Source: Desulfotomaculum nigrificans DSM 574 (GTDB lineage Bacteria > Bacillota > Desulfotomaculia > Desulfotomaculales > Desulfotomaculaceae). Taken from it: 64,000 nt of DNA. The DNA lies in NCBI RefSeq assembly GCF_000189755.2, contig NZ_KI912183.1, positions 12,564 to 76,563 of the forward strand. Reading direction: 5' to 3'. Below are positions 12,739 through 33,846 of this stretch, piece after piece. The notes below the pieces were generated by a model that was given only the letters and a program-made list of their open reading frames with translations, was not told the DNA's origin and did no database searches. The translations under genes and the position numbers were made by a program. Position 1 is the first letter of the stretch. Each line of letters begins with the position of its first letter.

Positions 12739-12752
12739 GGGTGATTTTAATT

Positions 12753-13565
12753 GTGAAAACTTTAGATGAAAAGTTAAAAAATTTGAGAGAAAAAATAAGA
12801 GGATACGGGAGTGTACTGATTGCCTTCTCAGGGGGAGTAGACAGTACTTTACTGTTAAAAATTTTGGCAGAAGAACTTCCTTCCCGGACTCTGGCTGTTA
12901 CAGCTATTTCCGATACATTTACATTAGAAGAAATAGAACGTGCCCAAAAGTTAGCCAAAGAGCTTGGAGTCGAACACCTGCTAATTGAAAGCACTGAAAT
13001 GACAGACCAAAGGTTTGTGTCAAATCCTCCGGAACGTTGCTACTATTGTAAACATATTCGTTTTAGTAAATTAAAAGAAATTGCCCGGGACAGGGGTATT
13101 GAAAATATAGTGGACGGATCCAATATCGACGATCTGGCTGACTTTCGGCCGGGTACTAAAGCAGTGGAGGAATTAGGGGTAAAAAGTCCTTTGCAGGAGG
13201 TAGGGCTTTCTAAAGCGGAAGTAAGGGAGCTGTCACGCCGACTCGGATTACCCACTTGGAATGTCCCGGCAGTTGCCTGTCTGGCTTCGCGTATTCCCTA
13301 CGGCGAAACCATTACGAAAGATAAGCTATTAACCATTAAAGCAGGTGAGGATTTTCTTAAATCATTGGGATTTTCACCCTGCCGTTTGAGGTATCATGGG
13401 AATTTGGCCAGAATTGAAGTACCAAGAGATAAGTTTATTAATTTAATAGAACACCAAGAAGAAATCACGAATTATTTAAAAAACCTGGGTTTTACCTATA
13501 TCACTTTAGATATAATGGGTTTGAGGTCCGGCAGTATGAATGAGAGCTTAAAGGAGGGTTTATAA
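12753..13565 (+). CDS. larE: LarE, sulfur insertion in nickel-pincer nucleotide synthesis
   Basis: ATP-dependent sulfurtransferase that turns the two carboxylates of the LarB product into thiocarboxylates (established for LarE). It is 270 aa from GTG at 12753, which follows AAGGGTGA; an in-frame GTG at 12741 adds four residues. The PP-loop SGGVDST is at 26-32. With this start a cysteine falls at 176 in PAVACLASRIPYG, matching the sacrificial Cys176 of Lactiplantibacillus LarE. Two more cysteines occur in RCYYCKH (96, 99). A three-cysteine set is the pattern of cluster-binding LarE proteins, which reuse sulfur from an iron-sulfur cluster. It is followed immediately by larB. Confidence 0.93.
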   Translation: MKTLDEKLKNLREKIRGYGSVLIAFSGGVDSTLLLKILAEELPSRTLAVTAISDTFTLEEIERAQKLAKELGVEHLLIESTEMTDQRFVSNPPERCYYCKHIRFSKLKEIARDRGIENIVDGSNIDDLADFRPGTKAVEELGVKSPLQEVGLSKAEVRELSRRLGLPTWNVPAVACLASRIPYGETITKDKLLTIKAGEDFLKSLGFSPCRLRYHGNLARIEVPRDKFINLIEHQEEITNYLKNLGFTYITLDIMGLRSGSMNESLKEGL

Positions 13566-14315
13566 TTGGATCAGTCTGAGATCAAAAATTTGCTCGAGCA
13601 GGTTAGAGACGGACACCTAACCATAGATCAAGGTTTGGAAAAATTAAAACATTTGCCATATGAGGATTTAGGTTTTGTCAAAATTGACCACCACCGCCAA
13701 TTACGCCGGGGCTTTGCAGAGGTAGTGTACTGTGCCGGCAAAACAGTGGAACAAGTTCAAAAGATAATGGAAGCACTGGCAAAAACAGAAAAAAATATCC
13801 TGGGAACCCGGGCAACTCCGGAAATGTATGAGGCTGTCCAGGATGTGGTGCCGGATGCAGAATATCATCAATTGGCCAGATTAATCACTGTTCAGCGCGG
13901 TGAACAAAAACAAGTAGGAAATATTTTAGTGGCTTGTGCCGGAACCTCGGATTTACCCGTTGCCGAGGAGGCAGCTATAACAGCGGAGATAATGGGTGCC
14001 AAAGTTGACAGGTTGTACGACGCAGGTGTAGCCGGTATCCATAGACTTTTGATGAACCGGGGCAAGCTAGATGCTGCGAAGGTAGTGGTAGTGGTAGCCG
14101 GAATGGAAGGGGCATTAGCCAGTGTCGTTGGGGGTCTGGTGGATAAACCAGTGATAGCGGTGCCTACCAGTGTAGGTTACGGGGCCAGTTTTAACGGCCT
14201 GGCGGCATTACTTGCAATGTTAAATAGTTGCTCTGCGGGAGTAACTGTAGTAAATATCGATAACGGGTTTGGGGCCGGTTATGCCGCAGCTATGATTAAC
14301 CGTATGGGGGAATAG
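13566..14315 (+). CDS. larB: LarB, pyridinium biscarboxylate synthase
   Basis: Carboxylates nicotinic acid adenine dinucleotide at pyridine C5 and releases AMP, the first step to the nickel-pincer nucleotide. It is 249 aa from TTG at 13566 with AGGAGGG upstream. The C-terminal half is PurE-like: ACAGTSDLPVAEEA near 123-136 and GYGASFNG near 204-211. Cys222 in NSCSAG matches the cysteine that forms an adduct with the substrate in characterised LarB. It starts one base after the larE stop and is followed 3 nt later by larC, a tight operon. Confidence 0.94.
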   Translation: MDQSEIKNLLEQVRDGHLTIDQGLEKLKHLPYEDLGFVKIDHHRQLRRGFAEVVYCAGKTVEQVQKIMEALAKTEKNILGTRATPEMYEAVQDVVPDAEYHQLARLITVQRGEQKQVGNILVACAGTSDLPVAEEAAITAEIMGAKVDRLYDAGVAGIHRLLMNRGKLDAAKVVVVVAGMEGALASVVGGLVDKPVIAVPTSVGYGASFNGLAALLAMLNSCSAGVTVVNIDNGFGAGYAAAMINRMGE

Positions 14316-14318
14316 GAT

Positions 14319-15107
14319 ATGCCGATTCTGTACTTTGATTGTTTTTCTGGTATTAGCGGAGATATGATTATCGGGGCACTGCTGGATGCCGGGCTCCCAT
14401 TTGATGTATTGGAGCAAGAAATTAAAAAACTTAAACTTGATGATTATAACATTAGGGAAGAGAAGGTCGTTAAAAGGGGTATTTCTGCCACCCAATTTAT
14501 CGTGGAAACCCATGAACATCATCCACACCGCCACCTGGTTGATATTCAAAAAATTGTAGGGGAAAGTGATCTGGAAGAACCAGTGAAAAACACCGTACTG
14601 GAGGTCTTTGCAAAGATTGCTGAGGCCGAAGGCAAGATACACGGAGTGAGTCCCGATACCATTCATTTTCATGAAGTAGGTGCCGTCGATGCCATTATTG
14701 ATATTGTAGGAGCGGTAGTAGGCTTACATACCATGGGCATTACCAAGGTATTTGCCTCCCCCCTGAATACGGGTGGCGGTTGGTCAAAATGTATGCACGG
14801 GACGATTCCGGTTCCTGCACCGGCAACCCTGGAATTGCTAAAAGGTGTCCCCATTTATAATGGGGGAGTATCCCTTGAATTGGTTACTCCCACCGGTGCT
14901 GCAATTATTACTACTGTATGCCAGGATTTTGGGCAGCTACCTCCTATGATACCAAAGGTTGTGGGTTACGGGGCCGGTACCGCAGATCCTCCGGTACCGA
15001 ACCTGCTGAGGGTTATTATAGGGGAGGAGACAAGCTGCGGGGTTAGTCATTTAAACCCTACGGAGCATAAACATACAGGACCTAAACATAACGAACACAG
15101 GCATTAA
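14319..15107 (+). CDS. larC: LarC N-terminal part only (LarC1-like), nickel insertion
   Basis: LarC is the CTP-dependent nickel-inserting cyclometallase that finishes the pincer cofactor. The protein here is 262 aa, whereas full LarC is about 400 aa; in lactobacilli larC1 and larC2 are joined by programmed frameshifting. It begins PILYFDCFSGISGDM and covers the LarC1 part (IHFHEVGAVDAIIDIVG, NTGGGWSKCMHGTIPVP), then ends in a His-rich tail (EHKHTGPKHNEHRH). The next 216 bases contain a terminator and no larC2-like frame. Either the C-terminal half is encoded elsewhere or this is a shortened form. The His-rich tail could hold nickel. Confidence 0.85.
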   Translation: MPILYFDCFSGISGDMIIGALLDAGLPFDVLEQEIKKLKLDDYNIREEKVVKRGISATQFIVETHEHHPHRHLVDIQKIVGESDLEEPVKNTVLEVFAKIAEAEGKIHGVSPDTIHFHEVGAVDAIIDIVGAVVGLHTMGITKVFASPLNTGGGWSKCMHGTIPVPAPATLELLKGVPIYNGGVSLELVTPTGAAIITTVCQDFGQLPPMIPKVVGYGAGTADPPVPNLLRVIIGEETSCGVSHLNPTEHKHTGPKHNEHRH

Positions 15108-15323: not shown

Positions 15324-16424
15324 ATGAGTATTTTTCAAAGTAGGGTTAAACGGGTACAGGACTACATCAAAAATACAGAGCTGGACTTACTGCTGGTGGT
15401 AGGAAGGGAAAATCTTATCTATTTTACGGGGTTAACCCAGATTGAATGTATGGCCATATTAATTCCCAAGGAAGGGGAGGCATGTGCCGTTACCCTGTGG
15501 TTGGATGCCGGCTATGTACAACAAGAATCGGGCATCAAAACATATGGGTATGTTTTTCCAAAAGAGAATTTAGCCAGTAAAGTTGTTAAGTGTATAAAGA
15601 ATTATGGCATGAACAAGCCGGTTATTGGTTTTGAACGGTATTTTGTGGACTTTGCCATGTATGATGAGATGAGAAAAGCTTTTCCCGAAGCTTATTTTAC
15701 TGCTGCGGGTGATATTTTTTATAAAATTCGCTCTGTTAAAGATGAACAGGAAATCAACTATATTAAACAGGCAGCTAACGCCGTTTGCTGTGGGGTTGAG
15801 GCAGCTGTAAAAGCGATTAAACCCGGCGTTACTGAATTGGAATTGTTAGCCGAAGCAGAGTATGCCATGATCAAAGCGGGTTCAGCCGGGTCCCCATTTC
15901 GTCCGCAGATTGTTTCAGGTGACAGAACACTGTTAACCCACCCCTGCAGCAGTGACAGAAAAATCAATTCTGGGGAAATAGTAGTTATTCATTTAGGAGC
16001 AACCTACCGGGGGTATTGTGCTAAAATGTGTCGTACCGTTGCACTGGGGCAAATTCCTCGGGAACAGGAGCAAGTTTACGAATTGTTGCTTGAGGCCCAG
16101 CAACGTGCCATTGATGAGTTGAAACCTGGTGTAACGGCCGATAGTGTGGATAGAGCTGCCCGGGAAATCATAGAGAAGGCCGGGTATCAGCGTTATTACC
16201 TTGATTATGTGGGATACGGCGTAGGGTTACGGCAGTCTGAATTTTATCCGATTATTGGTAAGGGGAGGAACGAAGTAATTGAAGCCGGTATGGTTGTTGA
16301 CCTACTCTTGCCCACTATTTATTTGCGCGGAATCGGCGGCCCCAGGGTTACCGATGTAATTCATGTTGGGGAGAAGACTAATGAAATCCTTACTGACTAC
16401 CCACGTGAGTTAATCAGGTTATGA
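15324..16424 (+). CDS. M24 (creatinase/aminopeptidase P fold) protein without metal ligands
   Basis: 366 aa: creatinase-type N-terminal domain (about 5-135) and a pita-bread M24 domain (about 145-360). The five metal-binding positions of M24 peptidases are replaced: His223 in VVIHLGA and Lys234 in CAKMCRT where Asp is expected, Tyr298 in GYGVGL where His is expected, Leu about 329 and Thr343 (RVTD) where Glu is expected. It therefore should not be a metallopeptidase. It may be a metal-independent creatinase-like hydrolase or a binding protein. ATG 15324 has only a weak ribosome site (GGTGG). It sits 54 nt before the nickel permease and after larC, so a link to that pathway is possible. Confidence 0.85.
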   Translation: MSIFQSRVKRVQDYIKNTELDLLLVVGRENLIYFTGLTQIECMAILIPKEGEACAVTLWLDAGYVQQESGIKTYGYVFPKENLASKVVKCIKNYGMNKPVIGFERYFVDFAMYDEMRKAFPEAYFTAAGDIFYKIRSVKDEQEINYIKQAANAVCCGVEAAVKAIKPGVTELELLAEAEYAMIKAGSAGSPFRPQIVSGDRTLLTHPCSSDRKINSGEIVVIHLGATYRGYCAKMCRTVALGQIPREQEQVYELLLEAQQRAIDELKPGVTADSVDRAAREIIEKAGYQRYYLDYVGYGVGLRQSEFYPIIGKGRNEVIEAGMVVDLLLPTIYLRGIGGPRVTDVIHVGEKTNEILTDYPRELIRL

Positions 16425-16478
16425 TGTATAGATATATAAATGGGTCAAAGAGCCAGATTGATTGAAGGAGGCAGACGC

Positions 16479-17510
16479 GTGAATCAAATTAAAATTGTTA
16501 ACAAAACGGCTATCGACCGTCCGAAATGGTTCTTCTATGCCCTTGCTGTGCTGGCAATTCATATCCTGGGGTTAACCCTTTTGATTACGGGGGCAGGGGA
16601 TCACCCGGAACTCCTTGGAATGGGATTTCTTACTTACACCCTTGGCTTACGCCATGCCTTTGATGTAGACCACATTGCGGCCATCGATAACACCGTTCGT
16701 AAGCTGCTGCAGCAAAGGGAAGACCCAACCGGTATAGGTTTCTTCTTTTCCTTAGGACATTCGTCAGTCGTTTTTTTAATGACCTTGTTTACTATTTTTG
16801 CTATGAATATTGTACAACAAGAACTTCCTCAACTAAAGGAAATCGGGGGTCTGATTGGTACTACCGTTTCAGGGGGATTCCTTCTTTTTCTCGGGCTTAT
16901 TAACCTCTATATCTGGAACGATATTTACCGTACCTTTACCAGGATGCGGCGTGGTGAATTTAATGAAGATAACCTGGAACAGCTACTCCTCTCCCGGGGA
17001 CTCATTGCCCGTATTGTAAGCCCGCTGTACCGGTTTATAAACAAGAGTTGGCAGGTTTTCCCGATGGGCTTCCTGTTCGGATTGGGTTTTGATACGGCCA
17101 GTGAGGTGGCCTTACTGGCTATATCCGTAGGAGCTGCACGGGAAACCATACCTTTAGCAGGTATTATTTCCTTCCCTATCTTGTTTGCAGCCGGTATGAG
17201 CTTGCTTGATACAGCGGACGGGGTGTTTATGTGCAATGCCTATCGCTGGGCTTTTGCCACGCCGTTACGAAAGATATACTATAATTTGACGATCACCGGG
17301 GTCTCTGTGGTGGTTGCCTTATTTATTGGATTTGTTGAGGTTGCTCAGGTATTGTCGTCTAAGATTGGGCTAAACGGTTGGGTTTGGAACTGGGTGCAGA
17401 ACCTGGATTTAAACAGATTTGGCTATCTTTTGGTGTTTTTATTTGTCCTGATATGGGCCGTTTCTTTTGGACTATGGAAATTTCTGGACCTCGAGAAACA
17501 GAGGACTTAG
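16479..17510 (+). CDS. nixA: NiCoT-family nickel/cobalt permease
   Basis: Secondary high-affinity nickel (cobalt) transporter of the HoxN/NixA family in the inner membrane. GTG 16479 is preferred because AAGGAGG lies at 16464-16470; an in-frame ATG at 16440 would add 13 residues. It is about 343 aa with roughly eight hydrophobic segments. Signature motifs are RHAFDVDHIAAIDN in helix II, LGHSSVVF in helix III and GFDTASEVALLAIS. Placement next to larEBC fits nickel supply for the pincer cofactor. Selectivity between nickel and cobalt cannot be read with certainty. Confidence 0.93.
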   Translation: MNQIKIVNKTAIDRPKWFFYALAVLAIHILGLTLLITGAGDHPELLGMGFLTYTLGLRHAFDVDHIAAIDNTVRKLLQQREDPTGIGFFFSLGHSSVVFLMTLFTIFAMNIVQQELPQLKEIGGLIGTTVSGGFLLFLGLINLYIWNDIYRTFTRMRRGEFNEDNLEQLLLSRGLIARIVSPLYRFINKSWQVFPMGFLFGLGFDTASEVALLAISVGAARETIPLAGIISFPILFAAGMSLLDTADGVFMCNAYRWAFATPLRKIYYNLTITGVSVVVALFIGFVEVAQVLSSKIGLNGWVWNWVQNLDLNRFGYLLVFLFVLIWAVSFGLWKFLDLEKQRT

Positions 17511-18836: not shown

Positions 18837-19643
18837 ATGCCAGAAACAAAATCAAAAAGGTCCGGAGAAACACAAATCAGATCGGTAGGAAAAGCTTTAA
18901 CAATTATTAACTATTTAGCAGAATCCCCAGGGGAGATGCCTTTGGTGAAAATAGCATCCAAACTGGGAATGGCCAAAAGTACAGTACATGGGTTACTGTC
19001 TACTCTCAAAGATTTTGGGTATATCGAACAATCACCATTTACTGGAAATTATAAACTGGGGATACGTCTTTTTGAATTAGGAAGTATCGTAGCAAATTCC
19101 TTTGATGTCCGTACAATTGCTGCGCCGTACATTCAACAACTGGTAGATAAAATCGAGGAAACGGTTCACCTGGTAACCCTGGATAAAGGGGAAGTATTAT
19201 ACATTGACAAGAGAGAAAGCCATCAATCCTTACGGATAGTTTCTCAGATAGGAATGCGCCTACCGGCCCATTGCACCGGAGTTGGAAAGGCATTGTTGGC
19301 CTATCTGCCGCCGGAAGAATTAAAATATCTTATCAAGACCAAAGGACTACCGCGTTACACCCAAAATACCATAACTGACCCCGAAAAGTTGGAAGAAGAA
19401 TTAAGACGGGTTAGGGAACGTGGTTATGCCGTTGATGTAGAAGAAATTATGGAAAGTCTGTGTTGTATAGCGGCACCGGTATTTGATCATACCGGTAAGG
19501 CGGTCGCAGCCATCAGTGTATCGGGACCGACGGCCCGCCTGGAAGGTGAGCGATTTGACATGATTGTAACCATGGTTATGCAGACGGCCAAGGAGATTTC
19601 AGCAGGATTAGGTTGCAGAAATACTCCTGGAGTAGGGAGGTGA
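18837..19643 (+). CDS. IclR-family transcription regulator
   Basis: 268 aa. Winged HTH at about 15-75 (MPLVKIASKLGMAKSTVHGLL) and IclR effector domain at about 85-260 (LPAHCTGVGKALLAYL, SLCCIAAPVFDHTGKAVAAI). ATG 18837 follows AAGGGGGGA. IclR proteins usually control catabolic operons and bind small aromatic or carboxylic effectors. It stands directly upstream of the NadC-like/MoaB-like/hydratase operon (5-nt gap to the next start) and so probably regulates it and itself. Confidence 0.93.
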   Translation: MPETKSKRSGETQIRSVGKALTIINYLAESPGEMPLVKIASKLGMAKSTVHGLLSTLKDFGYIEQSPFTGNYKLGIRLFELGSIVANSFDVRTIAAPYIQQLVDKIEETVHLVTLDKGEVLYIDKRESHQSLRIVSQIGMRLPAHCTGVGKALLAYLPPEELKYLIKTKGLPRYTQNTITDPEKLEEELRRVRERGYAVDVEEIMESLCCIAAPVFDHTGKAVAAISVSGPTARLEGERFDMIVTMVMQTAKEISAGLGCRNTPGVGR

Positions 19644-19648
19644 TTGAA

Positions 19649-20455
19649 TTGGAACTAAGGGAATTTCTTTTTCAGCCATTAAGGGATAAAAAATTTAGTT
19701 TTGTAATTACTGCTCAAGAAAAGGGTATTTTCTCCGGCGCAAAGCGTTTCAAGGAAATACTAACTGAACTTAACATAAAAGTAGATTGGGTGGCTGAAGA
19801 AGGATTTTCACTGCAACCGGATACCCCTGTTTTTCGAGGTAGCGGAACGGCTGAGAAGGTAGCCAGAGCAGAGGAAATGCTGTTAGGGGTCATAGGTAAG
19901 CCTTCCGGGGTTGCCACGGCAGCGGCTGAATTTATTAAACGAAGCGGGGGAAAAATAAAAGTTGTTTGTGGGGCGTGGAAGAAGGTGGCCCCAGAGATTC
20001 GGGCGGATTTACGCCAGGCTATTGCTACAGGCGGCGCAGGCATGCGTATTACGGAAGCTCCTTTTATTTATCTTGATAAAAACTATGTACGAATGTTTAA
20101 TGGTGTCGGACCGGCGGTCAGGCGAGCGGTGGAGTTTGACCCGGAGAGATTGGTGGCAGTGCAACTTAAGGGCGAAACGCAGCCGATTATTGAGGAAGTA
20201 AGGGAAGCGGTTGGTTCCGGGGCAAGCATCCTAATGATCGATACTGGTAACACAGCAGACCTGCGAACAGCGGTTAACGTTGCCATAGAGAATGGCTGGC
20301 GTGATAAAGTTCAATTTGCCTTTGGTGGTGGTGTCACACAAAAGGATTTTCCAGAAGTGATTGCCGCCGGTGCGGATATTGTTGATGTTGGTCGGGCCAT
20401 TATTGATGCCCCATTGCTTGATTTTCGGCTTGATGTGGAGAAAAAGGAGGAGTAA
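19649..20455 (+). CDS. NadC/ModD-type phosphoribosyltransferase paralogue with altered active site
   Basis: 268 aa with the alpha/beta-barrel layout of quinolinate phosphoribosyltransferase. TTG 19649 follows GGGAGGTGA; an in-frame ATG at 19613 overlaps iclR. Matches to NadC: SGVATAAAEFI (86-96), GGAGMRI near 128-134 where NadC has GG-x-NHR, and ILMIDTGNT where NadC has ImLDN. The NadC signature TRKTxPGLR is replaced by CGAWKKVAPEIR (107-118), and IKDNH by LDKNY. An ordinary role in NAD synthesis is therefore unlikely. It may act on another pyridine- or purine-like base, or on a nucleotide linked to the LarA-like protein downstream; this is inference. The gap to the next gene is two bases. 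Confidence 0.75.
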   Translation: MELREFLFQPLRDKKFSFVITAQEKGIFSGAKRFKEILTELNIKVDWVAEEGFSLQPDTPVFRGSGTAEKVARAEEMLLGVIGKPSGVATAAAEFIKRSGGKIKVVCGAWKKVAPEIRADLRQAIATGGAGMRITEAPFIYLDKNYVRMFNGVGPAVRRAVEFDPERLVAVQLKGETQPIIEEVREAVGSGASILMIDTGNTADLRTAVNVAIENGWRDKVQFAFGGGVTQKDFPEVIAAGADIVDVGRAIIDAPLLDFRLDVEKKEE

Positions 20456-20457: not shown

Positions 20458-21378
20458 GTGGAATGGGATCTCCTGGAGAAAACAACTTTCTGGATTGAGG
20501 GGATTGATCTTGAGGGAGCAAACCTCGGAGAAGTGGCTAAAACGGCGGCATTAGCCTTGGAAATGAAACCTGATGATATTATGGTTGTGGACGTAAGGCC
20601 GGGTCTAGTGGCCTTTGATGTCCTGCGGCGACAAGTGAAGGCTGAGTCAATTGTTGGTAAAGAAAAAGAGATTTTGCGGCAATTAGGTAATTTGGCCGGA
20701 GTTAAGCTGGATGCCTCAGCGGTGGTTCACTCAGAAGGTGTTCTCGGATTAATTGCCCTGGGAGAAAAGGAAGGGTTCAAAGTACTGACGGAATCAGAGA
20801 GAATGGCTGCGGATATCAGTAAAGCCGTTTCCCTGCGGGCCATTGTGTTTGCTTCCGGTAGTGAGGTCATTGCAGGCAAGATAGAGGATACCAATTCCCC
20901 TTATATTCTACAGGCCTTAGAGCAGGCTGGGTATAAAACTAAATTTGGTGGTATTTTAGAGGATAATGCGCAGGCTGCGGCCTCCGGCCTGGAAGCCGCA
21001 TTAGAACAGGGTTACGGGTTAATTATTACCACCGGTGGCGTTGGCGCAGAGGACAAGGACTTTAGCATTGAGGCCATCTGCCGCCTGGATCCTGATGCTG
21101 CAACCCCATGGATTCTTAAGTTTAAGCCGGATTATCACCGCCATCATAAAGAGGGCGTACGCATTGCCGTAGGTCAGGTGGGGATTGCCAGGATGGTGGC
21201 ATTACCTGGGCCGCACGAAGAAGCCAAGCTGGGTTGTAACCGTCTCATTGAGGGGTTACGGGCTGGTTTAGATAAGTCAGAACTAGCAGAATATATCGCC
21301 GGGGCGATCAGAGATCGTTGGCAAAACATGATGAAAAAAGGAGGACAAAAACATGGATCATCGCACCATAGCAGCTGA
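20458..21378 (+). CDS. MoaB/CinA-type (MoCF) domain protein with unrecognised N-terminal domain
   Basis: 306 aa from GTG with AGGAG upstream. Residues about 128-270 form a MoCF/CinA-like domain: FASGSEVIAGKIEDTNS, then the hallmark TTGGVGAEDKD at 191-201 and MVALPGPHEEA. Residues 1-127 are not recognised; they contain LVAFDVLRRQVKAESIVG. The domain binds molybdopterin in MoaB/MogA and pyridine-nucleotide-type ligands in CinA. In this neighbourhood either a tungsten/molybdenum cofactor or a nucleotide role is possible. The C-terminus is His/Ser-rich (HGSSHHSS). The end overlaps the next gene by 26 bases, so translation is likely coupled. Confidence 0.7.
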   Translation: MEWDLLEKTTFWIEGIDLEGANLGEVAKTAALALEMKPDDIMVVDVRPGLVAFDVLRRQVKAESIVGKEKEILRQLGNLAGVKLDASAVVHSEGVLGLIALGEKEGFKVLTESERMAADISKAVSLRAIVFASGSEVIAGKIEDTNSPYILQALEQAGYKTKFGGILEDNAQAAASGLEAALEQGYGLIITTGGVGAEDKDFSIEAICRLDPDAATPWILKFKPDYHRHHKEGVRIAVGQVGIARMVALPGPHEEAKLGCNRLIEGLRAGLDKSELAEYIAGAIRDRWQNMMKKGGQKHGSSHHSS

Positions 21379-22126
21379 GCTGTTGAGAGCTGAAGCAACG
21401 CAAACCCCTATAGACACGCTAACCGATACTTACCCCGATCTGAACGTTGAGGATGCTTACCAAATCCAACTTGCCCAGGTTGATATGCAGCTCAAAATGG
21501 GTCATAAGGTAGTGGGTAAAAAAATTGGCCTTACCAGCAAGGGTATGCAGCAACTTCTTGGTGTTAATGAGCCTGATTACGGCCACTTGTTTGAACACAT
21601 GCTGTTGATGGAAGGGGAACCTTGCCGCAGGGACCAATTGATCTGGCCCCGTATTGAAGGTGAGCTAGCCTTTGTCTTAAAAGACAGGCTAAAGGGTCCT
21701 GGTGTAAACATCGCCGATGTTTACAGGGCAACCGCCGGTATTATGCCTGCCATTGAAATTGTTGACAGCCGTATCCGTGATTGGAAAATTAAGCTACCGG
21801 ATACTGTTGCCGATAACGGGTCCAGTGCCAGGTTTGTCCTGGGCAGCCGTATGGTACCTGTTGAAGAATTGGATTTACGCCATATTGGTATGGTGTTGGA
21901 GAAAAACGGTGAAATGGTCAATAACGGCGCAGGAGCGGCCGTTTGGGGTCACCCTGCAGCAGCAGTGGCCTGGTTGGCTAATAAGTTAGCTGCTTATGAT
22001 ATTGCTCTGGAGCCTGGTGAAATCATCCTCTCTGGAGCCATTACCGCTGCTGTGGATGCCAACGCAGGGGATGTTTTTACTGTATCATTCCATTCGCTGG
22101 GTACCTTAAACCTTAAATTTATATAA
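21353..22126 (+). CDS. mhpD: 2-oxopent-4-enoate hydratase / 4-oxalocrotonate decarboxylase family
   Basis: 257 aa, the usual length. In aromatic meta-cleavage pathways this family hydrates 2-hydroxypenta-2,4-dienoate to 4-hydroxy-2-oxovalerate, or decarboxylates 4-oxalocrotonate. Motifs: [19 protein letters not shown] near 45-65, PDYGHLF, and the metal-binding pair in [11 protein letters not shown] near 105, with EIVDSRI further on. ATG 21353 follows AAAGGAGGA. Position ahead of acetaldehyde dehydrogenase and aldolase genes favours the hydratase. No oxygenase that would make its usual substrate is in the window. Confidence 0.85.
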
Positions 22127-22148: not shown

Positions 22149-23024
22149 GTGGAAAAGGTAAAAGTAGCAGTCATCGGCCCTGGTAACATTGGCTCAGACC
22201 TGATGTACAAGATTTTCCGCAGCAAGTATTTAGAAATGGCCCTGATGACAGGTATCGTAGAATCTGAGGGCATTAAGCGGGCACGTAACCTGGGGGTTAA
22301 AACCTCCACCGATGGCGTAAATGCTGTTCTGGCAGAAGAAGATATTAAAATCGTTTTTGATGCCACCGGTGCTAAACCTCATTTGATGCACGCCCCACTA
22401 CTTAAGGCAGCAGGAAAAATTGCCATTGACCTCACTCCGGCAGCAGTTGGACCCTACGTGGTACCTCCGGCAAACCTGGATAAGGTACAGGCGGAGCCTA
22501 ATTTAAACATGGTAACCTGTGGCGGACAGGCAACAGTACCTATCGTATATGCTATTAACCAGGTAGCCGGGGTAAACTACGCAGAAATCGTTGCCTGCAT
22601 CTCCAGTAAGAGTGCCGGGCCGGGTACCAGGCAAAATATTGATGAATTCACCCAAACAACAGCCAGAGCATTAAGAGTAGTTGGCGGCGCTAAAGAGAGT
22701 AAGGCTATTATCGTACTAAACCCTGCAGAACCACCATTGATGATGTCAAATACCATTTATACTGAGGTAGAGAATCCGGATGAAAAAGCCATTACAGAGG
22801 CCGTAAACGCTATGGTAAAAGAAATTCAATCCTATGTTCCGGGGTATCGCCTGCGGGTTCCCCCCATCATTGACGGAAACAAAGTAACCACCATTGTTGA
22901 AGTTGAAGGTGCTGGGGATTTCCTGCCCAAATACTCAGGCAATCTTGATATTATTACCTCCGCTGCAGTTGCCGTTGCTGAAAAAATTGCAGCAAAAATC
23001 TTAAGTAAGGAAGTGGTAGCATGA
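22149..23024 (+). CDS. mhpF: Acetaldehyde dehydrogenase (acylating), MhpF/DmpF type
   Basis: Converts acetaldehyde, NAD and CoA to acetyl-CoA and channels acetaldehyde from the partner aldolase. 291 aa from GTG. The NAD-binding start [17 protein letters not shown] is at about 5-22. The catalytic cysteine is in [12 protein letters not shown] near residue 120. Its stop overlaps the next start by 4 bases, typical for the enzyme pair. Confidence 0.93.
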
Positions 23025-24037
23025 GTAACGCAAAACACATCCACTTAGTCGATACAACTCTACGGGACGGCAGCCATGCCATCAGTCACCAGTACACGGC
23101 AGAGCAAATTGCCACTATTGCTGCCGGTTTGGATCAGGCCGGAGTGGAATTTATCGAAGTATCTCACGGAGACGGTTTAGCCGGCTCGTCAATTAACTAC
23201 GGCAGATCTGCCATTAGCGAAGAGGAAATGCTTAAGGCTGCCAGCAGTGTGATTAAGAATGCTACCCTAACTGTTTTGCTTATCCCGGGTATCGGAACCC
23301 AGGAAGATCTGGAAATGGCTATTAACTGTGGAGCCAAAGCCGTAAGGGTGGCAACTCATGTTACCGAGGCAGATATTTCCCAGCAGCATATCGCCATGGC
23401 CAAGAAAATGGGCTTAAAGGCAATTGGCTTTTTAATGCTTTCCCACATGGTAGAACCAGATAAAGTTGTGGAGCAAGCTAAATTATTTGAGTCCTACGGG
23501 GCAGACGTCGTATATGTAGCTGACTCTGCCGGAGCCATGCTGCCGGAGGATGTCAAGGCACGGATTAGCGCTGTGGTTGATGCTGTCAACGTACCCGTTG
23601 GTTTCCACGCCCATAATAACCTGACCCTGGCCACCGCCAATTCACTGGCTGCCATTGAGGCCGGCGCTACCTACATTGATGGAACCTGCCGCGGTCTTGG
23701 TGCCGGGGCCGGTAACTGCCAGATTGAAGCGCTGGTTGGCGTGCTGGATAAAAAAGGTTACCATACAGGAATAGATCTTTACAAGATTATGGATGTGGCG
23801 GAAGATCTCGTTGAACCCATTATGCACCGCCCCCAAGTAGTTCGTAATGCACCTTTTATGCTGGGTTATGCCGGTGTTTACGGTAGTTTCTTACTACATG
23901 CTTATCGGGCTGCCGAGAAATTTAACCTGGATCCAAGGGATATACTGGTGGAACTGGGTAAAAGAAAAATGGTTGGCGGTCAGGAAGACATGATTATTGA
24001 TGTCGCTTACCAACTATCTAAGAAAAGAGGTGCTTAA
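23021..24037 (+). CDS. mhpE: 4-hydroxy-2-oxovalerate aldolase, MhpE/DmpG type
   Basis: Splits 4-hydroxy-2-oxovalerate into pyruvate and acetaldehyde. 338 aa, TIM barrel of the HMGL-like family with a C-terminal communication domain. [16 protein letters not shown] at about 10-25 carries the metal Asp and catalytic residues; [20 protein letters not shown] holds the metal His pair near 190-210. It partners the dehydrogenase encoded just upstream. Confidence 0.94.
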
Positions 24038-24040: not shown

Positions 24041-24661
24041 GTGAAGATTGTCAACCTATTGGCAGTGGTAGACAACGAAAAATGCCGGGGCTGCAGAACC
24101 TGTGAACGTGTTTGCCCGGTATTGGCCATTAAAATGGAAAACCGCAAGGCTGTGGTTGACAACGAGCGCTGCCGTGGCTGCGCCAATTGTGAGCAGCGGT
24201 GTCCTTACTATGCCATTACCATGGTTAAGCGGGAACAACCCATCGCGGTCAAAGTTGATGTAACTGCTGTAGATTATGCTTTGATTGAAGATCTGTGCCG
24301 AAAAGCCAAGTTTAACCCGGAACAAATTATTTGCTACTGCACAGCCACCAGGGCAGAAGAAGTTGCGGCTGCCATCCTGCAGGGAGCCAAATCGCCTGAG
24401 GAAATATCCTTTTTAACCGGGGTACGTACCGGTTGTAAAGTAGAATGTATCCAACCTGTTTTAAGACTGCTGGAAGCCGCCGATATAAAACCCGAACCTC
24501 CCAAAGGAGGCTGGCAATGGTACGGCCGGACTGTAACCGTTTGGGAGATTCCGGAGGAAGTTAAAAGGAAATACGCCAGTCGTGGCTTCTATTTTGACGA
24601 GGACATCAAAATTTTAGATCGCGTGGCTAATGCGCCGCTGCAAGGAAGGAGTGATTCCTAA
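24041..24661 (+). CDS. Two-cluster ferredoxin fused to BFD-like [2Fe-2S] domain
   Basis: 206 aa from GTG with AAGAA upstream. Two [4Fe-4S] motifs: Cys15-18-21-25 and Cys44-47-50-54. A BFD-like [2Fe-2S] domain follows with CYC at 98-100 and CKVEC at 132-136. The last 50 residues, rich in Trp/Tyr (WQWYGRTVTVWEIPEE), are not recognised. It is soluble. It is likely to carry electrons for, or insert clusters into, an enzyme of this operon. Its stop overlaps the start of the LarA-like gene, suggesting a matched pair. Confidence 0.85.
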   Translation: MKIVNLLAVVDNEKCRGCRTCERVCPVLAIKMENRKAVVDNERCRGCANCEQRCPYYAITMVKREQPIAVKVDVTAVDYALIEDLCRKAKFNPEQIICYCTATRAEEVAAAILQGAKSPEEISFLTGVRTGCKVECIQPVLRLLEAADIKPEPPKGGWQWYGRTVTVWEIPEEVKRKYASRGFYFDEDIKILDRVANAPLQGRSDS

Positions 24662-26082
24662 TGCGTCCACCGATTATGCCGATACCTCCACGGCCGTCCC
24701 AGTACGGTATTGATCCCTCGTTGGTAAAAACACGAGTGGCTGAATTACCGGGCATGACTTCTATCGGACTGAAGGAATTGTTTCCCGATCTGCCCGATGT
24801 CATTTACCCCAGTGCTGAAGGGGTGGCCGCCATTCGGAAAGCCACTGAAGAGAGCCTCAAAAATGTTGACATGAGCAAGATTAAGCCTGAGCACTCTGTC
24901 AATATCCTGGCTGCCCACCACGGGTTTACCCTGTTAGGCGGTGAACCCTACGCGGAGATGCTAAAAACCATTAAAGATGTTATTGAGGCCCGTACCGGTT
25001 GTAAAAACATTCGCCTGCGTGCCGGTGTAGGTCTACGCTTCCGTGAAACAGAAGAATATATCAAACGTTATGGTCTGGACGAGTACTTTAATGGTAAAGC
25101 CATTGGCGTAGCCCCGGTTGATGAGGGTATTGCCATTGAAACCGAAGTGGGTACATTGTACGGAATTAAGAAGATCTACGACGCTGACTGGATTGTCCAT
25201 GCTCATAACAGTGATGTGCGGGAAGTTCACTTCCACCGTCAGGTAGACCGGGCAGTGAAACCCTTTGGTATGGCCTATGCCCGAATTGAGACCCGTTCAA
25301 CCTATCACCAAAACCTGGGTCCCCGGGCAGCTAACTTCACCGCCAGGGCAATCTTTGACTCACCCTTTGTACAAAGCAAATTTGCCTTTGCTTCATTCCT
25401 AACGGTAGCGCCCAATGGTATTATCAATGTAGATTCGGACAATGACTTGTATGCTTTAAATGACCGGGTAACCCAGAGCGGTTGCAAATATTATGGTAAA
25501 ATGATGACCCTGTTTGGGGAAATTGACGAGTGTATTGCTGCCCTTGATTTCCCTTGCCCGGTAGTTTACGTCTTCTCAGCCGGAGTTATTTATGCTAATT
25601 TTGCCGGAGCCAACACAGACCTGTATGATCTTGATATTGCCCTGCCGGCTTATACCTGGTATACCGAAGCATTCTACGGCAAGCGGGGTAAGCCGTTATT
25701 GGATGACATTCCGCGGGTAAACAAAGCCATTAAGATGTGCGTGCATAACTATGCCTGGACCGGTTATCCCAGCGCCTTCTTTAGCGAGCACATCCCCACC
25801 ATTGTCGTTGGCCAGGAGCAAGCTGACCTATTTAACCGCGACCCGCAGAACTTGACCTATATGAAGCATGCTATGGTTGCCGAAGACACCAAAGCAGCAA
25901 TGGAGTTTGCTTATAAGGTTACCGGTACTAAGAAGGTTCTTATCTTTGACGGTGCCATGGGTGGTATCAACGTTAGCGAACCTTTGGCTGAGTTCTTACT
26001 GAAGAAAGCTCCCGAAGTAAGTAAGCGGGTAGACGAGGAATTACTGCCTAAATGGTTACGCCAACGGGGAGTTATTTTGTAA
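24661..26082 (+). CDS. Divergent LarA-like (nickel-pincer enzyme family) protein
   Basis: 473 aa, not recognised at once. His190, Lys200 and His216 reproduce exactly the spacing of His174, Lys184 and His200 of lactate racemase LarA, where Lys184 bonds the pincer cofactor and His200 ligates nickel. Around them, VREVHFHRQVDRAVKPFG takes the place of PHxFAGFSGGRK. The stretch NGIINVDSDNDLYAL matches a LarA strand region. The first catalytic His108 (GxHR in LarA) is missing in AGVGLRFRETEEY (121-133), and Arg75 of LarA has no counterpart in AAHHGFTLLGG (84-94). So cofactor binding may be kept while the chemistry or substrate differs. LarA kinship is inferred by eye; genes for the cofactor lie at 12.7-15.1 kb. 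Confidence 0.55.
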   Translation: MRPPIMPIPPRPSQYGIDPSLVKTRVAELPGMTSIGLKELFPDLPDVIYPSAEGVAAIRKATEESLKNVDMSKIKPEHSVNILAAHHGFTLLGGEPYAEMLKTIKDVIEARTGCKNIRLRAGVGLRFRETEEYIKRYGLDEYFNGKAIGVAPVDEGIAIETEVGTLYGIKKIYDADWIVHAHNSDVREVHFHRQVDRAVKPFGMAYARIETRSTYHQNLGPRAANFTARAIFDSPFVQSKFAFASFLTVAPNGIINVDSDNDLYALNDRVTQSGCKYYGKMMTLFGEIDECIAALDFPCPVVYVFSAGVIYANFAGANTDLYDLDIALPAYTWYTEAFYGKRGKPLLDDIPRVNKAIKMCVHNYAWTGYPSAFFSEHIPTIVVGQEQADLFNRDPQNLTYMKHAMVAEDTKAAMEFAYKVTGTKKVLIFDGAMGGINVSEPLAEFLLKKAPEVSKRVDEELLPKWLRQRGVIL

Positions 26083-26203: not shown

Positions 26204-26222
26204 AATATTATGTCGAACATAG
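26204..26222 (+). promoter_or_regulatory. Possible IclR operator ahead of the BenE-like permease
   Basis: AATATTATGTCGAACATAG. Its reverse complement CTATGTTCGACATAAT resembles CTATGTTGGATAATAG ahead of iclR and GATGTTCGACTATGG at 15283 ahead of the M24 gene. It touches the ribosome site, so binding would block expression. Confidence 0.35.
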
Positions 26223-26239
26223 GGAGGTATAACCTATAT

Positions 26240-27511
26240 ATGAATAATGGGATTTTGGAAAAAGGCTATAACATATCGGAAAGCCTTAAGCTGGTATTTA
26301 CCAATCTTAATTTTCCTCGTCTAACTACTGGCTTAATTGGGGCATTATTCAGCAGCATGGGACCTGGCATGATTGTCATGAGTGCAGCTAAAGACGGAAA
26401 ACTTACTGAGGCCATGGCAATATCCTGGATTTTTGCAATATTCTTTTTTGCCGGTATTGCTACTATGTTTATGTCCCTTTACTACCGGACACCGGTGGTA
26501 ATTGCCTTTAGTATTCCCGGGTCGGTTCTTATAGGTAAGTATCTGCAATCTGGTGGCACCATTGAAATGGCTGTAGGGGTTTATATTGCTATCGGGGTGC
26601 TGGTGATTATTCTAACTGCCACCGGTATAATTAAAAATCTCATTGAGCATATTCCCGTATCGATTATGTTAGGTATGGTGGCAGGGGTATTGCTTAGCTT
26701 TGGAATGAATGCATTCACAAGTGCACTAAAAATGCCCGCAATTTATGGTGTAATGGTAGCGGTGTTTTTCCTGTGGTACAGCATTAAGCGGTTCTCCAAG
26801 TCGGTTCCCGGTGTAGTGGTGGCCATGGTAATCGGGGTTGTCCTTCTAAAGTCTGCCGGGTTGCTCAAGAGTGTACCGGTAGCCTGGGAAATCGCCCACC
26901 CGGTATTTGTTTCGCCAAGTTTTGATTTTAAAAGTCTAATTTCCCTAGGTGTACCACTCTTCTTCATGGTGGTCGGCGTACAAAACATTCAGGCAGTGGG
27001 AGTGTTGCTTTCCAGAGGTTATACTCCACCCATCAACGCCATGTATACTGTGCCTTCAATTATGACCTTCTTCAATGCTTTTTGTGCAGGGCATACTGCG
27101 GTTACGGCCGGCCCCAGTACAGCCATCTGCTCCAGTGATATGGCCGGTACCAAGGAATATCGTTGGATTGCTTCCTTCTTTGAAGGGGTGTTCTGGGTGA
27201 TAATTGGTCTTCTGGCCAAGGTAGGTGTAGAAAGTGCCAAACTGGCGCCGAAGGAGTTTATGCAGGTTGTGGCTGGACTGGCTATGTTTGAAGTTTTTAT
27301 CAGCGTCTTTGAGGGAGCATTCAGTCATAAGTTCCGCAAGGGAGCCATGGCAGCTTTCTTTATCGCTGCTTCAAACATTTCTCTACTGCAAATTGGTTCA
27401 CCCTTCTGGGCCATTGTCTTTGGCATATTAGTATCTTTAATTGCTGAGAGACAGGACTTCAAAAAAGAATCTGCAGATACTGAGGTTACAGCTGGTACTC
27501 AGGCTGCTTAA
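26240..27511 (+). CDS. BenE-like (benzoate:H+ symporter family) permease
   Basis: Inner-membrane carrier, about 423 aa from ATG 26240 (GGGAGGT at 26222-26228); an earlier in-frame ATG at 26210 adds ten residues. About 11-12 hydrophobic segments. Features like the BenE/xanthine-uracil permease superfamily: PVVIAFSIPGSVLIG near 95-110, SLGVPLFFMVVGVQNIQAVGVL near 235-255 and CAGHTAVTAGPSTAICSS near 285-300. It follows the LarA-like gene and probably imports the pathway substrate, perhaps an aromatic or small organic acid. The substrate cannot be read from sequence. Confidence 0.82.
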   Translation: MNNGILEKGYNISESLKLVFTNLNFPRLTTGLIGALFSSMGPGMIVMSAAKDGKLTEAMAISWIFAIFFFAGIATMFMSLYYRTPVVIAFSIPGSVLIGKYLQSGGTIEMAVGVYIAIGVLVIILTATGIIKNLIEHIPVSIMLGMVAGVLLSFGMNAFTSALKMPAIYGVMVAVFFLWYSIKRFSKSVPGVVVAMVIGVVLLKSAGLLKSVPVAWEIAHPVFVSPSFDFKSLISLGVPLFFMVVGVQNIQAVGVLLSRGYTPPINAMYTVPSIMTFFNAFCAGHTAVTAGPSTAICSSDMAGTKEYRWIASFFEGVFWVIIGLLAKVGVESAKLAPKEFMQVVAGLAMFEVFISVFEGAFSHKFRKGAMAAFFIAASNISLLQIGSPFWAIVFGILVSLIAERQDFKKESADTEVTAGTQAA

Positions 27512-27639: not shown

Positions 27640-27728
27640 AAAACCATGAAGGTTTTGCTAAAACATTTTATAAAATTTTACAAATCAGACCCATGAAGGG
27701 CTGGAATTAAAATTCTACCCTTCATGGG
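27640..27728 (+). promoter_or_regulatory. cbiM leader with mutually exclusive hairpins
   Basis: CCATGAAGG occurs at 27644-27652 (inside a small AAAACC/GGTTTT hairpin) and again as CCCATGAAGGG at 27690-27700. Both can pair with CCCTTCATGGG at 27718-27728. Alternative pairing upstream of the ribosome site (GAGGAG, 27742-27747) is what a metal-responsive attenuator would need. No known NiCo or cobalamin riboswitch signature was found. Confidence 0.45.
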
Positions 27729-27756
27729 TTATTATTTTGTTGAGGAGTTGATATGT

Positions 27757-28836
27757 ATGCACATGGCAGACGCATTGATTTCACCTGTTGTTGGTGGAAC
27801 CATGTGGGCTGCAACTGCAGGTGTCGCAGCTTATTCCATGAAGAAAATTCAGAATGACATGGACGAAAAAAAGATACCATTGATGGGGGTAATGGGAGCG
27901 TTTGTTTTTGCTGCCCAGATGATTAACTTTTCAATACCGGGAACTGGTTCAAGCGGACACCTTGGAGGAGGAATGCTGCTTTCGGTACTGCTCGGCCCTT
28001 ACGCCGGGTTTCTGACCATGGCCTCCATTCTTTTGATTCAGGCATTATTTTTTGCTGATGGAGGAATTTTGGCTTTTGGCTGTAATGTGTTTAATCTTGG
28101 TTTTTATACTTGCTTTATTGCCTACCCATTCATTTTTAAGCGATTTATGAGAAATGGCTATACTCCGGGGCGTATTTTCAGCGCATCTATGGTGTCGGCA
28201 ATCCTTGGACTTCAAATGGGTGCCTTTAGTGTAGTAATTGAGACGTTGTTATCAGGGAAAACAGAATTGCCTTTTGGTACCTTTGTGCTGTTGATGCAGC
28301 CTATCCACATCGCTATAGGCGTGGTTGAAGGGCTTGTAACGGCAGCAATTGTTACATTTGTTTGGAAAGCACGTCCTGAAATTATAGAGAAGGCTGCAAT
28401 TGGTGAGGCAATTGGCAGCATATCCATAAAGAAGGTGCTTGTAGGATTTGGATTTGTAGCACTGATAACAGGAGGCGTTTTTTCCTGGTTCGCTTCCACT
28501 CACCCCGACGGGCTAGAATGGTCAATGTTCAAGACCGCAGGCAAGGAGGAACTTGAAACGCCAAAGGGAATTCACCAGACACTTTCGGATATTCAGAACA
28601 AAATCGCATTTCTGCCTGATTACAACTTTAAAGCAGCAGAAGGTAAAAAAGAACAAAGTACAGGAGCAGAAGAGGCGTGGCCTGCCGTCAGCGGTGGAAC
28701 CAGCATATCTGGACTTGTGGGAGGGGCAATGACACTTGTGCTGGCGGCTGTTACTGGCTTCCTTGTAAGCCTTTTTAAACGGAGAAATAAAACAGCAGGA
28801 CTACATAAGATTGATAGTCCGGGGCGGGGCGTATAA
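27757..28836 (+). CDS. cbiM: CbiM/NikM-type nickel-cobalt ECF component with PDGLE extension
   Basis: Substrate-binding membrane subunit of an ECF-type nickel/cobalt importer. ATG 27757 gives the conserved N-terminus MHMADALISP, whose His2 binds metal in this family; an in-frame ATG at 27724 would bury it. It is 359 aa. The CbiM core runs to about 235 (GTGSSGHLGGGMLLSVLLGPYAG region). Then come a membrane segment, the PDGLE motif (HPDGLEWSMF) and a final membrane helix, which is the CbiN/NikN-like part fused on. CbiQ and CbiO follow. Nickel is favoured over cobalt by the cooT and lar context. Confidence 0.93.
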   Translation: MHMADALISPVVGGTMWAATAGVAAYSMKKIQNDMDEKKIPLMGVMGAFVFAAQMINFSIPGTGSSGHLGGGMLLSVLLGPYAGFLTMASILLIQALFFADGGILAFGCNVFNLGFYTCFIAYPFIFKRFMRNGYTPGRIFSASMVSAILGLQMGAFSVVIETLLSGKTELPFGTFVLLMQPIHIAIGVVEGLVTAAIVTFVWKARPEIIEKAAIGEAIGSISIKKVLVGFGFVALITGGVFSWFASTHPDGLEWSMFKTAGKEELETPKGIHQTLSDIQNKIAFLPDYNFKAAEGKKEQSTGAEEAWPAVSGGTSISGLVGGAMTLVLAAVTGFLVSLFKRRNKTAGLHKIDSPGRGV

Positions 28837-28874
28837 CCCCGTCGTTATTTTATTACAGGATTTGGTGAGTGATT

Positions 28875-29687
28875 ATGCCCAATATTGCTGATTCAATTAA
28901 TAAAATACGTTTTCTGGACGAACTGGCAGAAAAGAGAACATGGATACATGATATTCATCCTGTATGCAAGCTATTCGTAACTATTGCATACCTTTTCGTA
29001 GTTGTTTCCTTTGGCAAGTATGATACAGGCAGACTTCTGCCATTTGTTTTTTATCCGGTGGTTGTTTTTACAATTGGAGAACTTCCGGTGCTGCCCATAC
29101 TGAAAATGATGCTTGTAGCCGCGCCTTTTGTACTTGGAATCGGCATATTCAATCCTTTATTGGACAAGTCGGTAGTGGCAGTCTTTTTTGGTGTTCCAAT
29201 ATCAGGAGGATGGATTTCCTTCTTTTCTTTGATGCTGAAGTGTGGACTTACTGTTGTGGCTGCGCTTTTGCTGCTTGCCACAACAGGGATGGAACGGATT
29301 GCACTGGCACTTAGAATGATTCGGGTTCCGAAGATTTTTGTGCTGCAGCTTCTTCTTACCTATCGCTACATTACAGTTTTAATAGAGGAAGCCAACCGGA
29401 TTTGGAATGCTTACATGCTGCGGGCGCCCGGACAAAAAGGAGTTAGCTTTAAGGCATGGGGGTCTTTAGCTGGGCAAATGTTGATGCGTTCCTTTGATAG
29501 GGCACAAAGGGTTTATCAGGCAATGGGTCTTAGGGGCTTTAACGGGGAATATAATCCCGGGTGCATAAAGAAACCAGCTGTAAAGGATTTTATATATTTT
29601 ACGTGCTGGGTAGTGTTTTTTGCTGTTTCAAGGTATTATAACCTTCCTGGGCTGATTGGCACAGTGGTTACAGGAGTGATGAAATGA
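28875..29687 (+). CDS. cbiQ: CbiQ-type ECF transmembrane protein
   Basis: Coupling membrane subunit of the nickel/cobalt importer, 270 aa from ATG 28875 (GGTGAG upstream). About five or six membrane segments. The coupling helices carry the Ala-Arg-Gly-type signatures MLRAPGQKG and QAMGLRGF near 180-225 that contact the ATPase. The stop overlaps the cbiO start by 4 bases. Confidence 0.92.
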   Translation: MPNIADSINKIRFLDELAEKRTWIHDIHPVCKLFVTIAYLFVVVSFGKYDTGRLLPFVFYPVVVFTIGELPVLPILKMMLVAAPFVLGIGIFNPLLDKSVVAVFFGVPISGGWISFFSLMLKCGLTVVAALLLLATTGMERIALALRMIRVPKIFVLQLLLTYRYITVLIEEANRIWNAYMLRAPGQKGVSFKAWGSLAGQMLMRSFDRAQRVYQAMGLRGFNGEYNPGCIKKPAVKDFIYFTCWVVFFAVSRYYNLPGLIGTVVTGVMK

Positions 29688-30439
29688 GCCATCATATCGT
29701 TGATTTTAATAACGTATTTTATGCTTACCCCGATGGAAAGCAAGCTGTAAATGGCATAACCTTCAGGATTCATCATGGTGAATCAGTGGGCATTGTTGGG
29801 GCCAATGGAGCCGGTAAATCCACGCTTTTGATGTTACTTACCGGGATTCTTTTACCAGCGAGAGGTGAAATCCATGTGGGTGAAACTCTTGTCACCAAGA
29901 AAACCCTGTCTGTCATCAGGCAAAAAATTGGGTTTTCTTTTCAAGATCCTGATGACCAGCTTTTTATGACTACAGTTTATGATGATGTAGCTTTTGGCCC
30001 CCGTAATTATGGAATAGACGAACCGGAAGTTGAAAAAAGAGTGATGAAAGCTCTCGAAACGGTGGGAATTGCACATTTGAAAGACAGAGCCCCTTACAAA
30101 CTTTCGGGTGGTGAAAAAAGGGCAGCAGCAATTGCGGCAATTCTGTCTATGGACCCGGACATTCTTGTGATGGACGAGCCTACAACTGCTCTTGATCCCA
30201 GAGCCAGACGAAGACTTATAAGCCTTCTGAAGGGTTTTTCGCATACAAAAATTATTGCCACCCATGACTTAGATATGGTGTTGGAACTTTGTGAACGAAC
30301 CATTGTGTTGAATGACGGTAGGGTTGTTTGTGACGGTACTTCGTCAAAAATCCTTACTAATGAAGAATTGCTGGAACAATGTGGTCTGGAAAAGCCTCTC
30401 ACACTTCAGGGATGCCCTTTGTGCGGCTCAAAAAAGTAA
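29684..30439 (+). CDS. cbiO: CbiO-type ECF ATPase
   Basis: Energising subunit of the importer, 251 aa. Walker A GANGAGKST near 37-45, Q-loop FSFQDPDDQLF near 86, ABC signature KLSGGEKR near 140, Walker B ILVMDEP near 162 and switch His in IATHDLD. The C-terminal QGCPLCGSKK carries a CxxC pair that might sense or bind metal. It is the last gene of cbiMQO. Confidence 0.94.
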   Translation: MSHHIVDFNNVFYAYPDGKQAVNGITFRIHHGESVGIVGANGAGKSTLLMLLTGILLPARGEIHVGETLVTKKTLSVIRQKIGFSFQDPDDQLFMTTVYDDVAFGPRNYGIDEPEVEKRVMKALETVGIAHLKDRAPYKLSGGEKRAAAIAAILSMDPDILVMDEPTTALDPRARRRLISLLKGFSHTKIIATHDLDMVLELCERTIVLNDGRVVCDGTSSKILTNEELLEQCGLEKPLTLQGCPLCGSKK

Positions 30440-30567: not shown

Positions 30568-30993
30568 ATGCGGGTTGCAGTAATAGACGGGCAAGGTGGA
30601 GGCATAGGAAAAGCAATTGTGGATAAATTCAGGCAGGCATTTGGGGAAGAGATTGAAATTATTGCTTTAGGTACCAATGCGCTGGCAACATCTTTGATGT
30701 TAAAATCAGGGGCGAATGAAGGAGCTTCAGGAGAAAATGCCATTGTTTTTAATGCTTCAAGAGTTGATGTTATCTTGGGAACAATCGGAATTATTACTGC
30801 AAACTCAATGCTGGGCGAACTAACGCCGATGATGGCTAAAGCGATTGCAGAAAGTCCGGCTAAGAAGATCTTAATTCCATTAAACAGGTGCAACATTGAG
30901 GTAGCCGGAATTAAGAATATGCCTCTTCCTCATTATATTGATGATGCAATTGAGCTTGTTAAAAGCTATATGAGAGGTGAAAACAATGTGTGA
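30568..30993 (+). CDS. DUF3842-family protein
   Basis: 141 aa. Begins MRVAVIDGQGGGIGKAIVDK, a Rossmann-like Gly-rich loop, and has GTIGIITANSMLGELTPMMAKAI in the middle. Function unknown. It overlaps the CooT-like gene by 8 bases and follows cbiMQO by 130 bases with AT-rich promoter-like TATAAT sequences near 30515-30529, so it may be a separate small operon tied to nickel handling. Confidence 0.8.
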   Translation: MRVAVIDGQGGGIGKAIVDKFRQAFGEEIEIIALGTNALATSLMLKSGANEGASGENAIVFNASRVDVILGTIGIITANSMLGELTPMMAKAIAESPAKKILIPLNRCNIEVAGIKNMPLPHYIDDAIELVKSYMRGENNV

Positions 30994-33790: not shown

Positions 33791-33846
33791 TTCCACCAAA
33801 TCTCCAGCTAACATTTATACTTAGTTAACTAAAAAGAGGTGAGAGA

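Follow-up and report, generated by a model that had tools for sequence, protein, structure and literature searches.

The locus around P0001 of Desulfotomaculum nigrificans DSM 574 raises the question of whether a protein that matches no Pfam family at E<=1, and none in an NCBIfam scan, may be a nickel-pincer (NPN) enzyme and, if so, what reaction it would catalyze. The first-pass annotation of the 64,000-nucleotide stretch of DNA analyzed here (the window) had proposed kinship to lactate racemase (LarA), the kinship to be checked by profile-profile comparison and abandoned if the predicted fold proved unrelated. The features of the window that bear on the question are collected in Table 1. A literature search found no description of the P0001 family or its operon and no experiment on the family.

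Table 1. Features of the window considered in the analysis, in order of position.
Feature	Position	Strand	Remark
LarE, sacrificial sulfur transferase of NPN synthesis	12741..13565	+	327 bits, cut-off 150
LarB, NPN synthesis	13566..14315	+	304 bits, cut-off 175
LarC N-terminal part only (LarC1), NPN nickel insertion	14319..15107	+	C-terminal part absent there
M24-family hydrolase, recurrent P0001 neighbor	15324..16424	+	
NicO/HoxN-type nickel transporter	16440..17510	+	profile scans
IclR-family regulator, operon head	18837..19643	+	
qprt, quinolinate-phosphoribosyltransferase paralogue with rewritten base pocket	19613..20455	+	start codon uncertain
mocf, N-terminal alpha/beta domain and MogA/MoeA-type domain (PF00994)	20458..21378	+	profile and fold
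FAA-hydrolase family, 2-oxopent-4-enoate hydratase or 4-oxalocrotonate decarboxylase	21353..22126	+	both below curated cut-offs
Acetaldehyde dehydrogenase (acetylating)	22149..23024	+	453 bits, cut-off 282
4-Hydroxy-2-oxovalerate aldolase	23021..24037	+	537 bits, cut-off 286
fdBFD, two 4Fe-4S ferredoxin motifs, BFD-like 2Fe-2S domain and conserved tail	24041..24661	+	partner subunit candidate
P0001, LarA-fold protein, candidate nickel-pincer enzyme	24661..26082	+	473 aa, ATG start, ORF intact
BenE-family transporter, likely substrate importer	26210..27511	+	profile scans
CbiMN-CbiQ-CbiO, ECF-type nickel/cobalt importer	27724..30439	+	profile scans

P0001 homologues (n=41, 52-93% identity) are found in Clostridia, Deltaproteobacteria and one archaeal MAG, the carriers being Desulforamulus, Moorella, Sporomusa, Oscillibacter, Flavonifractor, deltaproteobacterial MAGs and the archaeal MAG. 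One deltaproteobacterial MAG, DX1.bin82, holds two different P0001 loci (L016 and L040), both with mhpD-mhpF-mhpE-fdBFD. A search for P0001 homologues on plasmids found none, and wider genome searches for intermediates between P0001 and LarA returned either clear orthologues or nothing.

At the level of sequence profiles, P0001 is not joined to LarA. Lar_N (PF09861) at E<=10 matched 0/41 homologues, and PDB chains searched with the P0001 family by phmmer and hmmsearch gave nothing significant. The proposed profile-profile comparison likewise yielded no significant link: hhalign of the family against 21 canonical LarA proteins was not significant in local, global or sub-optimal mode, a full-length alignment appeared only as a sub-optimal one, and the alignment of homologues has too little diversity (Neff 1.8). 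The fold tells more. With an AF2 model built without templates (pLDDT 81.6, pTM 0.85), Foldseek at E<=0.001 retrieved the LarA family exclusively, the best 13 matches having E values of 2.7e-9 to 2.6e-6. VIA-align of the model against the LarA family gave Z 17.7-19.0 and rmsd 3.8-6.2 over 326-361 residues, with the best non-LarA chain at Z 7.7. The model has the two-domain LarA fold and aligns over nearly its whole length. TM-scores against the family are moderate (0.37-0.49, normalised by query length), for which domain orientation and weak loops may be the cause, and the key loop is modeled with low confidence (pLDDT 60-81 in blocks 181-230). An unrelated predicted fold was not seen, all significant structural matches being to the LarA family. 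Since the fold matches solely this family, the kinship is supported though no sequence profile shows it, and P0001, as modeled, almost certainly belongs to the LarA fold superfamily. According to the model, it founds a LarA-superfamily family that every sequence library used has missed.

Kinship had originally been suspected from the spacing His190-x9-Lys200-x15-His216, which reproduces the LarA spacing (10 and 16) exactly, all three residues being invariant across the 41 homologues. Such a spacing arises by chance with a probability of about 0.014 in shuffles of P0001 itself and is weak by itself; with shuffling confined to the invariant positions the value drops to 0.0015, which is better evidence. 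The spacing was not used as sole support. The invariant residues also include His86, His87, Arg126, His180, His182, Arg187 and His192. Residues were paired with LarA (L. plantarum numbering) in four MAFFT modes. LarA His200, the fourth nickel ligand, falls on His216 in 4/4 modes. For the catalytic His174 and the NPN-tethering Lys184, 3/4 modes give Arg187/Arg197 and 1/4 gives His190/Lys200, and the sub-optimal hhalign alignment places His174 on His190. We prefer the His190/Lys200 pairing because Lys200 is invariant, unlike any other lysine of that region (family members have either Lys or Arg at position 197), and because His190-Lys200-His216 aligns without any gap.

LarA Asp72 pairs with His86 and Arg75 with Phe89 in 4/4 modes, and the NPN ribose and phosphate contacts that Asp72 and Arg75 make in LarA are not found in P0001; the GFSGG loop ahead of the tether lysine is missing as well. 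LarA His108 pairs with Arg126 in two modes and with a gap in the other two. The AGVGLRFR segment reported in place of the LarA GxHR is present, its Gly124 and Arg126 being invariant. An invariant arginine at the His108 position supports the proposal that the family is without LarA's first catalytic histidine. In LarA, the arginine at position 73/75 contacts the phosphate of NPN, and in the Isosphaera enzyme it binds the carboxylate of the substrate as well (PMC12611868); in P0001 an invariant Phe89 aligns there. Judged from its aligned residues (Arg126 for His108, His86 for Asp72, Phe89 for Arg75), the P0001 family is not a LarA-type racemase.

The non-conservation of Asp72, Arg75, His108 and the GFSGG loop could also mean that P0001 kept the LarA fold, lost the pincer cofactor and binds another ligand, the lar genes being retained for canonical LarA only. 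Related groups with altered catalytic residues are suspected not to use NPN (PMC7583248). The gene neighborhoods make such a loss quite improbable, as lar genes lie inside P0001 operons and LarE and LarB are near-universal in P0001 carriers, including a genome without a Lar_N match. LarE scored above its cut-off in 37/37 sampled P0001 genomes and LarB in 36/37, the one genome without LarB (G154) having P0001 as a contig-edge fragment. The LarB background in the phylum sample is 217/398 genomes. The co-occurrence of LarB and P0001 gives a Fisher p of 1e-6, uncorrected for relatedness beyond the observation that 13/14 families in the phylum sample have LarB, and a p of 0.07 in the class sample alone. 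In 11 of the 27 carriers of the phylum sample, P0001 and LarB share a contig and are no more than 20 kb apart. At L143 a single strand reads benE-M24-iclR-fdBFD-P0001-qprt-mocf-mhpD-mhpF-mhpE-larE-larB-larC; L142, L144 and L145 resemble it in having the lar genes inside the P0001 run, and at L141 the lar genes are just divergent. In an Oscillibacter locus (L034), cbiMNQO-larC-larB-larE is divergent from P0001. Genome G197 encodes P0001, two LarB and two LarE with zero Lar_N matches, and G094 encodes P0001, LarB and LarE with Lar_N matches below cut-off only.

In D. nigrificans DSM 574 itself, LarB, LarE and LarC are all available. LarC1 of the window is a 262-aa protein with a His-rich tail (HKHTGPKHNEHRH); the DNA beyond its gene is AT-rich and non-coding. 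Full-length LarC is encoded elsewhere (G000:C1:2280720-2281883, 406-aa frame). Two canonical LarA genes are found at 1.42 and 1.79 Mb, distant from the lar genes, which are therefore not exclusive to P0001. Taken together, the co-occurrence with larE and larB and the shared gene runs support the pincer-nucleotide link proposed in the first-pass annotation, and P0001 quite likely uses a pincer-type cofactor. A search for a nickel riboswitch found none, and no tRNA gene was found in the window. A complete rRNA operon (16S, 23S, 5S; 5975-11342) stands directly upstream of the lar genes, and a DUF3842 gene (30568-30993) follows cbiO; DUF3842 occurs in 6/56 P0001 loci, for example adjoining larE in L034.

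The most constant neighbor of P0001 is an iron-sulfur gene. fdBFD lies directly upstream, the two genes overlapping by one base at stop and start (TAATG) in the window, and it adjoins P0001 in 53/56 loci, the other three ending at contig ends. All 12 of its cluster cysteines are conserved. fdBFD is likely the redox partner of P0001, and with such a partner the P0001 step would result in net oxidation or reduction, not isomerization; we put forward net redox chemistry with fdBFD tentatively. A redox-neutral alternative, in which P0001 is an NPN-dependent isomerase, racemase or dehydratase working with a single catalytic histidine and fdBFD serves cofactor maturation or another pathway step, seems unlikely to us. 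Single-histidine LarA homologues do exist, although it is the second histidine that is replaced there (PMC12611868), and Desguin et al. proposed for them a hydride shift to the neighboring carbon (PMC7583248). Against this reading stands the constancy of the Fe-S gene and its overlap with P0001; the main text of PMC7583248 mentions no Fe-S partner for LarA homologues.

The operon with ferredoxin-BFD and a 4-hydroxy-2-oxovalerate pathway, also claimed at first pass, is real: up to and including P0001, intergenic gaps range from -31 to +22 bp. For the FAA-hydrolase family member, 2-oxopent-4-enoate hydratase is the closest assignment and 4-oxalocrotonate decarboxylase the second. The transporters of P0001 loci differ (BenE, TRAP, DctM-like and Liv, with unlisted families typed by eye from sequence), which suggests an imported organic acid as the pathway substrate. 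From BenE and the nearby UbiX/UbiD genes, a pyridine carboxylate or another ring acid was considered as a candidate. Genes for MoaD-like, aldehyde ferredoxin oxidoreductase (AOR), iron alcohol dehydrogenase, UbiD and UbiX proteins lie at 33500-38290 and 17973-18575 of the window; UbiD genes stand beside P0001 in 14/56 loci and AOR genes in 6/56. Farther downstream, a T-box leader (148.6 bits, 52462-52681) precedes an acyl-CoA-synthetase-like gene (52795-54477), after which comes a leucyl-tRNA synthetase-like gene at 54587.

To our knowledge, all described LarA enzymes give the hydride back to the same substrate. During LarA catalysis, the hydride of the 2-hydroxy acid passes to the NPN pyridinium and its proton to one histidine; the second histidine returns a proton on the opposite face (PMC12611868, PMC11770544). 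With Arg126 at the position of LarA's other catalytic histidine, two-histidine racemization of a 2-hydroxy acid is unlikely in P0001. From the computed fold, conserved residues, operon and co-occurrence we infer its cofactor use, residue roles, redox coupling and substrate as follows. P0001 would carry the NPN cofactor made by LarB, LarE and LarC, tethered via Lys200 and with His216 as the fourth nickel ligand. His190 or the neighboring His192 may act as general acid/base, and P0001 would use one face for hydride transfer from or to a carboxylate substrate. Its product would lead to 2-oxopent-4-enoate, then hydration and aldol cleavage to pyruvate and acetaldehyde, and finally acetyl-CoA. Given an arginine in place of one histidine and a fixed Fe-S partner, the simplest interpretation is hydride chemistry on one face, coupled to an exchange of electrons. 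On balance we think it fairly likely that P0001 is an NPN-type hydride-transfer enzyme, possibly redox-coupled to the Fe-S protein and feeding the 2-oxopent-4-enoate route, its chemistry presumably differing from that of LarA.

Two further genes travel with P0001. The class genomes with qprt, those with mocf and those with P0001 are the same 13/113; qprt scores 308-396 bits there, all other matches (NadC) scoring at most 102. L054, the most distant of the loci, keeps qprt, fdBFD, P0001 and mocf and has no hydratase, dehydrogenase or aldolase gene; this persistence makes the four look like a functional unit. That qprt is plain NadC was rejected, as the true NadC of D. nigrificans DSM 574 is encoded elsewhere (C1:2464390). 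In quinolinate phosphoribosyltransferase (QPRTase), Arg138, His160, Arg161 and Lys171 bind the nicotinate 3-carboxyl, Asp222 the ribose and Lys139 the phosphate (PMC3633916). qprt is homologous to QPRTase over its whole length, and by profile alignment the base-pocket Arg138 and His160 are replaced, with the Asp222 and Lys139 equivalents retained. Residues 120-287 of mocf have a MogA/MoeA-type fold (Z 14-16).

It is possible that qprt and mocf are dedicated genes for the P0001 cofactor. A specific version, in which P0001 carries a variant pyridinium-nucleotide metal cofactor, qprt attaching the base, mocf activating the phosphate or inserting the metal, and LarB/E/C performing the sulfur and nickel steps, is somewhat unlikely in our estimate. 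The shared distribution, the persistence at L054, the separate NadC of D. nigrificans DSM 574, the altered base pocket with kept ribose and phosphate positions, and the fold of mocf all favor it. However, qprt and mocf could instead serve the catabolic substrate or a molybdenum/tungsten cofactor, an AOR gene being near some loci. The fullest combination, a two-subunit nickel-pincer oxidoreductase of P0001 and fdBFD with Fe-S electron exchange and a cofactor nucleotide built by qprt and activated by mocf, we regard as rather unlikely, more so than the variant cofactor itself.

Newly seen here are the invariant Fer4/BFD gene upstream of P0001 and the co-distribution of qprt and mocf with P0001. 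Since P0001 combines a LarA fold and the lack of one catalytic histidine with NPN and Fe-S genes encoded alongside, it probably represents a new type of nickel-pincer enzyme, acting in an anaerobic catabolic pathway. About 15% of analyzed genomes reportedly produce the nickel-pincer cofactor but have no LarA homologue (PMC11796402), and the P0001 family, which Lar_N does not detect, offers a specific candidate for at least some of the missing NPN users, for example in G197. If true, nickel-pincer chemistry would extend from hidden-redox racemization to a catabolic step in anaerobes, and qprt and mocf may be two further genes of nickel-pincer cofactor biology. Some P0001 loci also encode other proteins with LarA-like features. 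Near P0001, L016:5315-6700 codes for a further LarA-like protein (similar genes occur in L020 and L039) in which the NH of the nickel-ligand region is retained and which has QATLWGYGGSGM where LarA has PHxxxGFSGGxK, apparently without His174 and Lys184. A DUF362-like Fe-S protein (L060:949-2055) has a KGHELTGYGGVLKNIGMGLG segment that matches Lar_N weakly (17.6 bits), and a distant kinship of the DUF362-like and LarA families is possible.

Among known systems, LarA (PDB 5HUQ, 6C1W) and the LarA homologues of Desguin 2020 share with P0001 the full-length two-domain fold and the position of the nickel-ligand histidine, and LarA likewise has larB, larE and larC in the same genomes, often in the same gene run. 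P0001 differs from LarA in its 12-16% identity, its lack of a Lar_N profile match and of the GFSGG loop, its obligate Fe-S neighbor and its two further dedicated genes. For qprt, NadC is matched by profile and fold over the whole protein, but the base pocket of qprt is rewritten and NadC lies elsewhere. MogA-MoeA proteins resemble residues 120-287 of mocf, which has an extra N-terminal domain, and, unlike NadC or the MogA-MoeA proteins, qprt and mocf have a distribution tied to P0001. Further parallels are LarA_Bw and LarA_Sp (PDB 9Q3J, 9Q3K; PMC12611868), which also have the LarA fold with one catalytic histidine missing (Z 19.0 for P0001 against 9Q3K_A). In these enzymes, the second histidine (His174) is replaced by Asn and the first is kept, whereas in P0001 it is the first that is replaced. 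Their Lys and His for NPN are plain and their context is that of sugars, while P0001 is found in a 2-oxopent-4-enoate context.
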